Shown here: positions 4,078-10,066 of the stretch, piece by piece
Position numbering within the stretch: the stretch's first letter is position 1
Layout of the letters: each line of letters starts with the position of its first letter
DNA from: Nitrospirota bacterium
GTDB taxonomy: Bacteria; Nitrospirota; Thermodesulfovibrionia; Thermodesulfovibrionales; JdFR-86
Length of the DNA stretch: 59,610 nucleotides
Assembly: GCA_016207905.1 (NCBI GenBank)
Contig: JACQZC010000040.1
Span: forward strand, 1 to 59,610
Direction: 5' to 3'
Translations under genes and position numbers: made by a program
The notes under the pieces: model-generated
What the model was told of the DNA's origin: nothing
The model's input: only the letters and a program-made list of their open reading frames with translations
The model's database searches: none

Positions 4078-5283
4078 TTATCTGTCGAGAGTTACCTTCC
4101 TGGTTACTGAGTGAATCGGATATTTCTGCTCAGGGTTGCCAAGTTCGTAGAAAAGGTTAACTGTCACATCGGCTTCCCTTACACCCTCGGGGAGGTCGAA
4201 CTCCATTGTCTCCTTTTTAGGTTTCATCGGCTGAAGGCTCGTATCGCGCAGGTTTGCCACCTTCCAATGTGCTCCATACTTCATCTTGTGGTCCCTGCAG
4301 TTCGTAGCCTGCGGATGATAATGCCTTTCCTGCTTGTTCTCTACATCCTTACCATCTTTGTCTTTGTATTTTGCGGTCACTTCCATGACCACTCTGTTAT
4401 GAGATGGTCAGCCATCAGGGGTTCTATGCCCGGCAGTTGTAGTTATCGTTGTGGACACGACAACCTTAGACACATAAGTGCCTGCCTTTCTCAGCCAATC
4501 GTATCCGACGGTCTGCACATCGAGGGAAATCGCCTTGCCGAGGAGCTCTACCGTTGCCTTTTCATCGTTCCAATCAGGTGCTATAAGGTGGTCGCCTTTT
4601 TGCATGTGGCAGTTCTGACAGGTCTTTGTTCCGCCTGAGGATATATAGTTATGGAGATAACTGCCATACAGATTTGCACACTGAAATGGCTGGTCGAATT
4701 CAAGGTTAGGACCAAGTCCATGGCACTGTCCGCAAAAGAGCGAGTTGGTAAATATTGCGCTCTTTTTAATCTTTCCGCCTGGATGTGCATCATTGTCTTT
4801 TGAGCTATAGATGACGCCCTTTTCAGGCTCGCCAAGCTCACGCTTGTGAAGAATCGCCTTGGTGTTATGGCAGACGGTACATGTAATCTGAAGCTTGCTT
4901 ATTTTCTCCTTATTGCCGTCTAAGAGAGCCTGTGCCACCTCTGCGAAAAACGAATTCTCTGCATCCAATGCATTCGGTAGATGGCATTTGAAGCAGGGAA
5001 AGTTCTTTGCTGTTGCCACTTTAGGATCAACCTTGCCATCCTTGTCCTTTGGTGAAAACGCACTTTCCTTTACCACAGGCACAAGCATTAATCCGCCTTT
5101 GACCCCCATAAGAGGCCTTGCATGATGGGACTTTTCCCACTGGGCATAAATCTCGGCATGACAGCCCTTACAATCACTACTATCATACATCTTTGCAAGC
5201 TCATCGATGCTCTTTGCGCCTGCATAAACCGAAACAGGCACTACTACAATCGCTATTAACAGTAGCATTTTCAGATACTTCAT
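4078..5283 (-). CDS. extKL: Multiheme c-type cytochrome ExtKL-type, candidate selenoprotein (in-frame UGA at 4408-4410)
   Basis: Predicted periplasmic or outer-membrane electron-transfer cytochrome. An N-terminal signal peptide (KMLLLIAIVVVPVSVYA, cleavage near residue 21) precedes five CxxCH heme motifs at about C38, C97, C135, C184 and C222. A UGA codon falls at residue 292 in GHRTPDG-UGA-PSHNRVVMEV, and the frame continues for 109 more residues (MEVTAKYKDKDG onward) to a TAA. Both halves are in the same frame and well conserved in style, so this is not a frameshift; a SECIS-like hairpin lies right behind the UGA. From memory, public databases carry a family called multiheme c-type cytochrome (seleno)protein ExtKL, found with the porin ExtI in Geobacter ext loci; the divergent neighbour here is ExtI-like. 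Start is an ATG behind AAAGGAGG. If UGA were a true stop, a 291-residue protein would result. Confidence 0.8.
4373..4410 (-). promoter_or_regulatory. Candidate bacterial SECIS element
   Basis: In the mRNA, numbering the UGA as 1-3, nucleotides 19-25 (GUGGUCA) pair with 32-38 (UGACCGC) around the 6-nt loop UGGAAG. The 7-bp stem has one G-U pair. Loop distance from the UGA and a G among the first two loop bases match bacterial SECIS rules. It lies inside the coding frame, as expected for SelB-dependent decoding. Confidence 0.6.
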
Positions 5284-5646: not shown

Positions 5647-7155
5647 ATGAGAAAGATTTTGGTATTCCTGCTTTTGGCACTTCTTCTTATCCCTACCCTC
5701 TCCTCTGCCAGCGAAGAAGAGCTAAAATCTGACATAGAAGCGCTTAAGAAGCAGGTTGAAGAACTCAAGATGTCCTCAGGAAAGGCTGAGTGGCCCTCAT
5801 GGCTTAAGCTAAATGGAGACCTGAGGACAAGGATTGACAGTCTCAAGGGCAAGGTCCATGACCACACCCTTGCGCTACCGAGAGGGACATATTATAACGG
5901 AATGCCCCTCTTCTATTTCAACGCCGCAAGCTCAATAAATGGTTATGATGCAAAGAACGACCCCATCTTTACAAACCGCTTCAGGCTTGGCATTGTTGTC
6001 AATCCTGTAGAGAATGTCTATGCAACAGCAAAGCTTGCTGCTTACAAGGTCTGGGGGCATCAGACCGAAACACCCGTTCAGGGTGCATACTTCGCTGACA
6101 GGGCTAATGGCACATTTGACGGCTCAGTAACGCATGTTCCTGAGGATAACATCCTCAGAGTTGACCAAGCAGACTTCACCATACTGAAAATACTCGGTAA
6201 GCCCATCTGGTTTTCTGTTGGAAGGAGACCCTCAACAGGTGGAGTTCCCACACATTATAGAAGGAATGAAGAGAAGGTAGGCACAGGCGGAGTGCAGGGC
6301 ATACTCGTTGACTATGCATTTGACGGCACCTCATTAGGTGTTGCTCCTGAGATAAGCGGGCTTCCAGGGGCTTATGCAAAGGTATGCTACGGGAAGGGCT
6401 ATGACTCAGGCTTCAAAAACCTTCAGGGTAACAGCATCAAGGATGTCACAATGGTTGGCTTAGACATAGTTGCGATAGAGACAGATGCCCTTCGCGTGGA
6501 GGTTGAAACAAACAAAGCATTTAACATATTTGACAACATGCCCGATGCAGGCGTCAGGACAAACCTCGGCGACATAGTGCAATATGGAACTACGGTCTCT
6601 GGAAAAGTTGCCAATCTTAATCTCTTTGCAAGCGCTGGACTTAGTAAGACAGAACCCAATAACAACATGTTCACCTATGGCATTGACAACGACAATGACG
6701 GTGCCCCTGAGATGACAGCTGGTGCAGGACTTCTTTATGATGCGGTGAAGGAGGACCACTCAGGCTGGGCAGTCTATGTTGGAGGCAGATATGATGTAGA
6801 GAAAACCCGCACCAAGATTGGCGCAGAATACAACCACGGCTCCAAATACTGGATAGCCTTTACCCCTGCGGCAGATGACATGTGGACAAGCAAGCTCGGC
6901 ACAAGAGGTGATGTCTACGAGGTCTATGTGATACAGTCCCTGAACAGAAAACCCATTGCAAAGCGCGGGCAGGTGTTCTTTAGGCTCGGCTATCAGTATT
7001 ATGACTTCAAACACACGGGCTCCAACAACTGGGTGGGCGCACCGAGAGAGATAGCCAAGCTTACAACAAACGACTTCGCAAACGGAAACGCACAGATGTT
7101 CCAGCCCATTGACAAGGCATACGACATCTACCTCACTTTAGAGGTAGTATTCTAA
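5647..7155 (+). CDS. extI: ExtI-like outer-membrane porin (DUF3373-type)
   Basis: Predicted outer-membrane beta-barrel. A cleavable signal peptide (MRKILVFLLLALLLIPTLSSA) is followed by a short coiled coil (EEELKSDIEALKKQVEELK, about 23-45), typical of trimeric or periplasm-anchored porins, and then about 440 residues of alternating polar/aromatic strands. The protein ends in LTLEVVF, the C-terminal Phe signature of barrel proteins. I place it with DUF3373/ExtI porins because of its divergence from the ExtKL-type cytochrome and its features (NRFRLGIVVNP, GRRPSTGGVPTHYRRNEEK); the assignment is from memory. Such porins sit with cytochromes in outer-membrane conduits linked in Geobacter to metal or selenite reduction. 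It has its own promoter, ribosome-binding site and terminator. Confidence 0.7.
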   Translation: MRKILVFLLLALLLIPTLSSASEEELKSDIEALKKQVEELKMSSGKAEWPSWLKLNGDLRTRIDSLKGKVHDHTLALPRGTYYNGMPLFYFNAASSINGYDAKNDPIFTNRFRLGIVVNPVENVYATAKLAAYKVWGHQTETPVQGAYFADRANGTFDGSVTHVPEDNILRVDQADFTILKILGKPIWFSVGRRPSTGGVPTHYRRNEEKVGTGGVQGILVDYAFDGTSLGVAPEISGLPGAYAKVCYGKGYDSGFKNLQGNSIKDVTMVGLDIVAIETDALRVEVETNKAFNIFDNMPDAGVRTNLGDIVQYGTTVSGKVANLNLFASAGLSKTEPNNNMFTYGIDNDNDGAPEMTAGAGLLYDAVKEDHSGWAVYVGGRYDVEKTRTKIGAEYNHGSKYWIAFTPAADDMWTSKLGTRGDVYEVYVIQSLNRKPIAKRGQVFFRLGYQYYDFKHTGSNNWVGAPREIAKLTTNDFANGNAQMFQPIDKAYDIYLTLEVVF

Positions 7156-7457: not shown

Positions 7458-7778
7458 ATGAATAAAAGTAAAACGCTCTTTGAGTTACAGGCTGAGGTCT
7501 GTAAGACCCTTGCAAGCCCGAAAAGGCTTGAGATAATAGATGTGCTTAAGTCAGGTGAAAAGACTGTAACCAGTCTTGTTCAAATACTCGGCATTCCAAA
7601 GGCTAATATCTCACAGCACCTTTCCCTGATGAAGCACAAGGGGATACTTAGGTCAAGAAGGGAGGGTGTCAATATCTACTATAGCATTGCAAACCCAAAG
7701 GTAGTGAAGGCATGCCTCCTCATGAAAGAGGTCCTTACAGAACAGATGAAAGAAAGAAGCAAGCTCATAAATGCCTAA
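7458..7778 (+). CDS. ArsR/SmtB-family transcriptional regulator
   Basis: Small winged-helix DNA-binding repressor. The order is typical: helix with LASPKRLEIIDVLKSGEKTV (about 18-37), recognition helix TSLVQILGIPKANISQHLSLMK (about 38-59), and wing GILRSRREGVNIYYSIANPK. The family's metal-sensing CxC of the alpha-3 helix is absent (only C15 and C91 are seen), so it probably senses something other than arsenic-type metals or uses another site. It sits between the porin and the minus-strand DUF2318/NosL genes and may control this respiratory region. It is monocistronic with its own promoter and terminator. Confidence 0.8.
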   Translation: MNKSKTLFELQAEVCKTLASPKRLEIIDVLKSGEKTVTSLVQILGIPKANISQHLSLMKHKGILRSRREGVNIYYSIANPKVVKACLLMKEVLTEQMKERSKLINA

Positions 7779-7838
7779 GCTTCTCATTTAGAGAAGTTTC
7801 TATGTCTTCAAGCTGAAAAACTGTTTTTATCTAATTAG

Positions 7839-7870
7839 AAAAGGGGGGTCAAATTGCCCCTCCTTTTTTT
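7839..7870 (+). terminator. Intrinsic terminator of the ArsR-type gene
   Basis: Stem of about 9-10 bp (AAAGGGGGG paired with CCCCTCCTTT, one wobble) and a T run to 7870. Confidence 0.8.
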
Positions 7871-7920
7871 CTGATTACTCAATCTCTACTTCTAATATCC
7901 ATAATTTATATATAGAAAGG

Positions 7921-8340
7921 TTAAAAATATTGTGTCCCTTTGATTAGCTCTCCTTTTTCTATTATGTAGCTGTCCTTCTCAGCTCTTCCCTCAAGCCCTA
8001 TGGGATAACAGGTTCCTATGCCTTTGAGGGCATCGATAGGGTATTTTATTCCACATGCCCTGCACACGAGGCTTTCATCTTCCGGAAAATAGCCAAGCCT
8101 CTTTGGATAGCATTTCATACAGGCATCAAAAAATGAAGAGACATTGCCGTTTATCTTTAGGACAAAGAAATTAACTCTCCTGCCCTCATAGATATATGAG
8201 TAAAATACAGGTAGCTTCTCTTTCAGATCCCTTATATCCAGTTCGACCATATCGCCCCTAAGTGGAGGCGGTGGATAAGAGGCATTGCCCTTACAGGAAA
8301 AAAATGCAAATATGGCCAAGATTACTGCTAAATTCCTCAT
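7921..8340 (-). CDS. DUF2318-type lipoprotein
   Basis: Exported protein of unknown biochemistry. A hydrophobic N-terminus ending in FFSC (residues 13-16) looks like a lipobox, so it is probably a periplasmic lipoprotein. The DUF2318 signature is clear: ACMKCYPKRLGYFPEDESLVCRACGIKYP (about 74-102), two CxxC pairs likely to bind metal, then GIGTCYPI. In other bacteria this family occurs with iron or copper transport and periplasmic redox genes. It is encoded immediately after a NosL-like gene (6-bp gap) and is probably co-transcribed with it. A truncated copy of its last 30 codons lies at 5440-5533. Confidence 0.7.
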   Translation of the reverse strand: MRNLAVILAIFAFFSCKGNASYPPPPLRGDMVELDIRDLKEKLPVFYSYIYEGRRVNFFVLKINGNVSSFFDACMKCYPKRLGYFPEDESLVCRACGIKYPIDALKGIGTCYPIGLEGRAEKDSYIIEKGELIKGTQYF

Positions 8341-8346
8341 GGCTTT

Positions 8347-8811
8347 TTAATGCATCTTCATGGGCATCCTGACAGGCATCTCCATTGCCTCATTGAATGT
8401 CATCAGAGCACCCTTCTTAGAGGTAGAGTCTTTGTCTTTAAATGCACCGATACCATAGCCCATTGGTGTTGAAAACTCAGAGCTTTTTACATAATGTGCG
8501 GTGAGTGCATCTATCCATGTGCCTGAGGTCATATCTTTGACAAATACGGTTTCAGGCTTTTCTTTCATCTTTTTATAGTGGATGAGCATGTCTCCGACAT
8601 CGCAGAATGAAAGGAGTTTCCCATCCTTGGTTACTATTTGGGCTATGAATGGAGATGCCTTATCAACCTTCATTCCGCACTCAGCACACATCGCACCTTC
8701 TCCAATCTCCATTGGCTGGGAAAATACATTCACCGAAAAGCCCACTACCAAAAGGCATACCAACAAAACTCCAAGCAAATTTCTCTGACCTTCTTTGTAA
8801 TCTCTAATCAT
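8347..8811 (-). CDS. NosL-family copper-binding protein
   Basis: Predicted periplasmic Cu(I)-binding protein of the NosL family, known for helping copper delivery to nitrous oxide reductase; nosZ is not in the window, so here it may serve another metal or redox role. A signal or anchor helix (LLGVLLVCLLVVGFSVNVFS) is followed by the diagnostic CAECGMKVDKASPFIAQI with a second conserved block LLSFCDVGDML. The C-terminus is Met-rich (MEMPVRMPMKMH), suiting copper binding. The start is set at 8811 (MIRDYKEG), because GGAGGTGATT lies directly before it; an upstream ATG at 8826 lies inside the TonB-receptor relic. Followed by the DUF2318 gene. Confidence 0.75.
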   Translation of the reverse strand: MIRDYKEGQRNLLGVLLVCLLVVGFSVNVFSQPMEIGEGAMCAECGMKVDKASPFIAQIVTKDGKLLSFCDVGDMLIHYKKMKEKPETVFVKDMTSGTWIDALTAHYVKSSEFSTPMGYGIGAFKDKDSTSKKGALMTFNEAMEMPVRMPMKMH

Positions 8812-9225
8812 AATCACCTCCATCAAACTGTGATTTTGTCAGGGTTCCGGGAAGCTGTAAATCAGCCGCTGTGTAAGTAAAGGTAGCCTCCAAAGAGGTC
8901 CTGTCATCAATCAGCCGTCCTACCTTGAGGCTACCTTGATTTGTGCTGAATTCATTCCACTGCCTCCATGAATCCGTAGACCGCCTACTTCCTAAGAATG
9001 TAAAAATGTCTTTCCTATGCTGGCTCCATAGATAAGGTTATACATCTGGGTGTTATTGCTTCCATAGCCGAATTTGAGCTCTCTTATTTTTTCAAAGGGG
9101 CTCTTTGTGATTACATTTATAACCCCACCAACAGCATTTGCTCCATAAACCGCCATATTAAATTCAATATTTTCAAATTTTTCTATCTATTAATTCTGTC
9201 ATTCCAAGACCGAACATCCTGACTC
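8808..9225 (-). pseudogene. Decayed TonB-dependent receptor
   Basis: The minus strand carries plug-domain sequence (MFGLGMTELIDRK, then in another frame VYGANAVGGVINVITKSP and GYGSNNTQMYNLIYGASIG), and after a further frame change barrel sequence (STDSWRQWNEF, LEATFTYTAADLQLPG) that stops at TAG overlapping the NosL start. At least two frameshifts are present, and the bulk of the barrel and the N-terminus are missing. A TonB receptor for metal or siderophore uptake was once here. Confidence 0.8.
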
Positions 9226-9283: not shown

Positions 9284-10066
9284 TTATTTGGTCGGGTTAC
9301 CCTTTGTGTTTATCTCGGGTACAGCCGAGCCATGACACTCCGTGCAGTTATGCTGGGAAGTTATATTATAGACTAAGGCAGGGAGTTTGTGTTCAGCCTT
9401 AAACTTACCATCAGCCCAGTCATTCAAGAGTTTCACTGTCCGCATTGCTACATCAGCAGAGAGCCTGGCACACCTGTCTTTCCTCTCAGGGGTCCAGAAT
9501 CCTTTATCTGCCTTCTTCATCCATTTGCCAACTGAAATGTGGCATAAAGGAGAATCACTCTTGCTCTTTATCATCTCTGCAGCTGTCTTTGGAGTCTTAG
9601 GGGTATAAATTGGTAGCTCTGTGTCCGCATACCAATGTATCACCTCATTGGCAATCTGTTCGCCGTCTTTAGCTACGCCGGGTCCACATATGAGAGATGT
9701 AACAACGCTGGCTCCAAGCATTGTTCCGCATAGCGTTCCCCATCCTACCACCCCACCGTGACCCCATACAAGGGATTCTACGGGGAATGAGGTATAGGGT
9801 TCTCCAATCTTTTCTCTGAGGGGAAGGATTATTCCGCTTGCAACTGAATAACAGCAGAATCCCTTATACCAGTTTTCATAGGCTATTTTCCCAACCTCCT
9901 CAGGATCCAACTTTTTGTATGGCCATGGCAGTGGTGTTTCTTTAGCCTCTGCCTTTGAAATCAGTGTAAGTCCTCCTGCTGATACAATGGCTGTTCCAAT
10001 GGCAAGCTTGCCTGCACCTTTTAATAGCTCTCTCCTTGAGAGATTTTCATTTTTTATATCTATCAT
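9284..10066 (-). CDS. TAT-exported C_GCAxxG_C_C / split-Soret-like cytochrome
   Basis: Predicted periplasmic redox protein. A twin-arginine signal (SRRELLKGAGKLAIGT, about 10-25) with an AEA-type cleavage site near residue 40 indicates export in folded form with cofactors bound. The body has the spaced-Cys pattern of the C_GCAxxG_C_C family (GFCCYSVASGI, GWGTLCGTMLGA, LICGP), a CHISVGKW segment, and one CxxCH heme site (CTECH) near residue 242. This arrangement resembles split-Soret cytochromes of sulfate reducers, which carry heme plus an iron-sulfur cluster; the assignment rests on motif memory. The start ATG follows GGAGGT. It belongs with the neighbouring cytochrome and NosL genes. Confidence 0.65.
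   Translation of the reverse strand: MIDIKNENLSRRELLKGAGKLAIGTAIVSAGGLTLISKAEAKETPLPWPYKKLDPEEVGKIAYENWYKGFCCYSVASGIILPLREKIGEPYTSFPVESLVWGHGGVVGWGTLCGTMLGASVVTSLICGPGVAKDGEQIANEVIHWYADTELPIYTPKTPKTAAEMIKSKSDSPLCHISVGKWMKKADKGFWTPERKDRCARLSADVAMRTVKLLNDWADGKFKAEHKLPALVYNITSQHNCTECHGSAVPEINTKGNPTK

Follow-up and report, generated by a model that had tools for sequence, protein, structure and literature searches.

The gene on the reverse strand at positions 5283 to 4078 of the window (the whole stretch of 59,610 nucleotides that was analysed) almost certainly encodes a selenocysteine-containing five-heme c-type cytochrome of the ExtKL/MccSep type, in which the UGA at codon 292 specifies selenocysteine (Sec). 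Since both a curated profile, NF040886, and solved structures of MccSep already exist, the finding amounts to rediscovering, correctly, a previously catalogued selenoprotein family, of which the gene is a new Nitrospirota member. ExtKL corresponds to GSU2937-2936 of Geobacter sulfurreducens, which was earlier proposed to contain Sec (PMC5877670), and ExtKL appears among the prokaryotic selenoproteins reviewed in 2026 (PMC13188914).

Translation of the window revealed a single frame of 401 codons (4078–5283, reverse strand), interrupted only by a TGA at codon 292 (4408–4410, reverse strand) and terminated by a TAA (4078–4080, reverse strand). Automatic gene calling would divide this gene at the UGA into an ORF of 291 codons ending with the TGA (4408–5283, reverse strand), which contains all five heme motifs, and a downstream ORF of 104 amino acids (4078–4392), which is merely the GTG-started tail of the same frame. 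With TGA read as Sec, the product is a protein of 401 amino acids with a signal-peptide-like N-terminus, U292, and five CXXCH motifs starting at C38, C97, C135, C184 and C222. On the reverse strand, these are CKGCH (residues 38–42, positions 5158–5172), which is invariant in 70 homologues, and CFKCH (residues 97–101, 4981–4995), CTVCH (residues 135–139, 4867–4881), CGQCH (residues 184–188, 4720–4734) and CQNCH (residues 222–226, 4606–4620), assigned from the translation and the conservation profile of the homologues. U292 is located 66 residues past H226 of the fifth motif, close to the distance of about 70 residues given in a preliminary description of this DNA. When the entire window was searched for further pairs of frames connected through a TGA, all candidates resembled ordinary gene ends.

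In a profile search, the read-through product matched a curated NCBIfam equivalog, NF040886 ("multiheme c-type cytochrome (seleno)protein ExtKL"), scoring 420.4 bits where 250 are required; the alignment comprises protein residues 22–399 and profile positions 32–422 of 423, and crosses the UGA. The preliminary description had treated the two separately called ORFs as one frame broken solely by UGA and had placed the product in the ExtKL family; the first claim is confirmed by the translation and by the profile spanning the UGA, and the second is borne out by the score. Hits to NF040886 above the cut-off were found in 82 of 296 Nitrospirota genomes, mostly with exactly one internal TGA, and the closest relatives are Nitrospirota metagenome-assembled genomes (MAGs). 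The ExtKL selenoprotein family is thereby firmly extended into this phylum, where it is widespread.

The comparison with homologues that had been proposed at the outset, asking whether Sec or Cys occupies position 292, returned these two residues exclusively. Among the 111 homologues readable in this column, 92 have Sec (all TGA) and 19 have Cys (12 TGC and 7 TGT codons), and on a tree of 107 proteins at least four switches between Sec and Cys are present, all of them forced by supported branches. Loss of the Sec machinery was considered as an explanation of the Cys members and rejected: SelA and SelB scored above their cut-offs in 14 of the 15 genomes with such members, both being absent from G242 only, so the presence of Cys does not simply mark genomes that have lost this machinery. 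Two ExtKL frames, in loci L113 (215–1384) and L130, carry an additional in-frame TAG, which could reflect decay or an assembly error.

The SECIS-like hairpin that the preliminary description noticed after the UGA proved to be real. It has the form GUGGUCAU GGAA GUGACCGC (4373–4392, reverse strand) and spans nucleotides +18 to +37, with the U of UGA counted as 0. Its predicted stability is -12.1 kcal/mol, with z-scores of -2.5 against dinucleotide shuffles and -2.4 against synonymous recodings of this gene. The hairpin is kept in Sec homologues and lost in Cys homologues: base-pairing at +19/36, +20/35 and +21/34 occurs in 98–100% of 90 distinct Sec sequences, with 98–99% for the latter two, while in the 19 Cys sequences +20/35 is formed in 37% and +21/34 in 53%; the pair +19/36, formed in 100% of the Cys sequences as well, does not discriminate between the two groups. 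With synonymous recodings that follow the codon usage of the respective gene as the reference, Sec members have a mean z-score of -1.9 and Cys members one of +0.1. As this region is coding, its conservation partly reflects the protein; the members in which Cys has naturally replaced Sec and the SECIS element has disappeared serve as a clean comparative control for this.

The AlphaFold2 model of the protein, calculated without hemes (pLDDT 90.8, pTM 0.86), consists of a heme-rich helical N-terminal part and a C-terminal beta-sandwich starting at about residue 250. The model resembles the pentaheme cytochrome c552 5ze8 (Z 22.6, 303 residues, 3.3 Å, 20% identity). A search with the profile of the 70 homologues detected, at an E-value of about 1e-138, PDB chains that bear the name "multiheme cytochrome c selenoprotein (MccSep)" (entries 9wt8, 9wta and 9wtb, and the U325A mutant 9wt9), in which the non-standard residue X325 aligns exactly with U292; a literature search found no open-access paper on MccSep. 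Outside the heme motifs, P103, C202 (4678–4680, reverse strand), H232, H286 (4426–4428, reverse strand), C/U292 and P352 are invariant, and the equivalent of C202 is a cysteine in both MccSep and 5ze8. The only conserved histidines outside CXXCH are H54 and H167 (94% each) and H232 and H286 (100% each), and in four members H54 gives way to Met, a substitution compatible with an axial ligand. With just four such histidines for five hemes, one heme probably has no conserved distal His and may be open or unusually ligated.

On the basis of these data, the following scheme could be proposed. The protein is most likely secreted and functions as a periplasmic or outer-membrane-associated five-heme c-type cytochrome. 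Incorporation of Sec at codon 292 almost certainly follows the usual bacterial pathway involving tRNA-Sec(UCA), SelA and SelD, with SelB binding the SECIS hairpin that comes immediately behind the UGA. The five hemes are located in the N-terminal half, and the GHRTPDG-Sec-P loop of the C-terminal beta-sandwich presents Sec292. His286, in the invariant GHxxPDGU loop, is a probable axial heme ligand, tying the Sec loop to a heme, in which case Sec292 would be positioned at the edge of that heme; as already suggested in the preliminary description, Sec292 may contact a metal or heme. Sec292, perhaps together with the invariant Cys202, could be the site where an oxidised substrate takes electrons from the heme chain. 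Such a catalytic role of Sec292 is somewhat more likely than not. Selenite reduction was proposed for Geobacter ExtKL in a preliminary statement (PMC5877670), and by analogy selenite would be a possible, if doubtful, substrate here. As a candidate partner cysteine, Cys202 can be inspected directly in the MccSep structures.

Alternatively, Sec could be inserted into a protein that acts as a plain electron carrier, where it would play a structural or protective rather than a catalytic role. The cytochrome c552 5ze8 has Ala at the position of Sec292, indicating that the same fold works without Sec, and gene context fixes neither a substrate nor a partner. However, the only residue that replaces Sec within the family, in no fewer than four lineages, is Cys, as expected of a redox-active Sec, and Cys202 and His286 are invariant alongside Sec/Cys. 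Taking both sides into account, we consider the plain carrier unlikely, although far from negligible, and prefer a redox-active Sec292.

The genome, 2.03 Mb in size and 98% complete, was searched for the components of Sec biosynthesis and insertion. The preliminary description had named selA, selB, selD and tRNA-Sec as the genes to look for, and all four were found: a tRNA-Sec with a TCA (UCA) anticodon, SelA (615 bits), SelB (379 bits; one full copy) and SelD (335 bits), the last with its own in-frame TGA within ASGUAAKLGP. The SelD selenoprotein locus (L137; contig C55, 8197–9114) directly follows a gene for an MnmE-like tRNA-modifying GTPase, the product of which ends in CIGK.

The same genome contains two tRNA-Cys genes (L002 and L003, each at 1497–1594 on the reverse strand, on contigs C91 and C19, respectively) with GCA anticodons, U73 and a tRNA-Sec-like architecture, both exceeding the tRNA-Sec gathering score and fitting the selC* tRNA-Cys of Nitrospirae (PMC7609411). 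Because selC*-type tRNA-Cys have been described in Nitrospirae, and some of those from elsewhere carry a UCA anticodon (PMC7609411), one could hypothesise that a suppressor tRNA of this kind decodes the UGA as Cys or another residue. This reading is highly improbable and was rejected: both tRNA-Cys have GCA anticodons, the genome profile search revealed one full SelB and no second SelB*, the genome has a dedicated tRNA-Sec(UCA) and the gene a SECIS hairpin, and the solved relative MccSep, named a selenoprotein, has a non-standard residue at this site. The possibility that the UGA is a true stop, leaving a 291-amino-acid five-heme cytochrome and a separate 104-amino-acid gene or decaying remnant, was dismissed as next to impossible: although a standard caller would split the gene there and the heme motifs all lie upstream, a single NF040886 profile crosses the UGA, the tail is conserved and contains the invariant P352, 19 homologues continue through this position with Cys, and both the SECIS element and the complete Sec machinery are present.

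The divergent neighbour of the ExtKL gene (5647–7155, forward strand) encodes a DUF3373 outer-membrane protein (porin), while ExtI is assigned to the phosphate-selective porin O/P family, and thus this neighbour should not be called ExtI. The ext genes for the ExtI porin, ExtM and ExtN, which are typical neighbours in Geobacteraceae and are not part of the curated NF040886 model, do not lie beside the gene; the DUF3373 porin and unrelated genes are found instead. The statement in the preliminary description that ExtKL occurs near ExtI porins thus holds for Geobacter (PMC5877670) but not for this locus, nor was a DUF3373-type porin found beside ExtKL in its closest relatives. Their neighbours are unrelated, encoding a KsgA-type rRNA dimethylase, an ILVD-type dehydratase, a homoserine dehydrogenase, and GNAT and LigD_N proteins, which indicates that in this branch ExtKL is a stand-alone gene without an ext operon. 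A DUF3373 porin adjoins ExtKL in three other loci only: in L024 and L025 it lies directly upstream, and in L111 the two genes are convergent. The association thus recurs in distant branches. A conserved operon or partner naming the substrate was not found among the homologue loci, about one-third of which had flanks of only 1.5 kb.

Within the window, the gene at 9284–10066 (reverse strand) encodes a Tat-signal protein similar to split-Soret cytochrome c of the C_GCAxxG_C_C family, although its score of 163 bits falls short of the 400-bit cut-off; a relative of this protein, a split-Soret cytochrome, adjoins ExtKL in two loci, L063 and L110. The region 7458–8826 may be a locus for the handling of a metal, perhaps copper: it comprises a gene for an ArsR/SmtB-type regulator and, after it on the opposite strand, FtrD-like and NosL genes.

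As a tentative idea, the stand-alone branch of Nitrospirota and Thermodesulfobacteriota ExtKL proteins might represent a periplasmic oxidoreductase in its own right, operating outside the ext cluster, in which the open or unusually ligated heme, the Sec292 selenol and the Cys202 thiol would form one catalytic site for an oxyanion; we regard this as conceivable, with the balance leaning against it.

Among known systems, MccSep (9wt8) aligns over residues 17–401 with U292 matched to U325 and with Cys202 and every heme motif conserved, although the sequence similarity is just moderate and several MccSep insertions are missing from the present protein. The cytochrome c552 of Thermochromatium tepidum (5ze8) shares the fold of the whole protein, the heme layout, the HxxPxGxP loop and the equivalent of Cys202, and differs in having Ala in place of Sec292 and in its low sequence identity. 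The Geobacter sulfurreducens ExtKL (GSU2937-2936, NF040886) has likewise five CXXCH motifs and a single UGA encoding Sec in the C-terminal domain. However, while extKL of Geobacteraceae is located within the extHIJKLMNOPQS cluster (PMC5877670), the gene described here stands alone, accompanied by a divergent DUF3373 porin gene.
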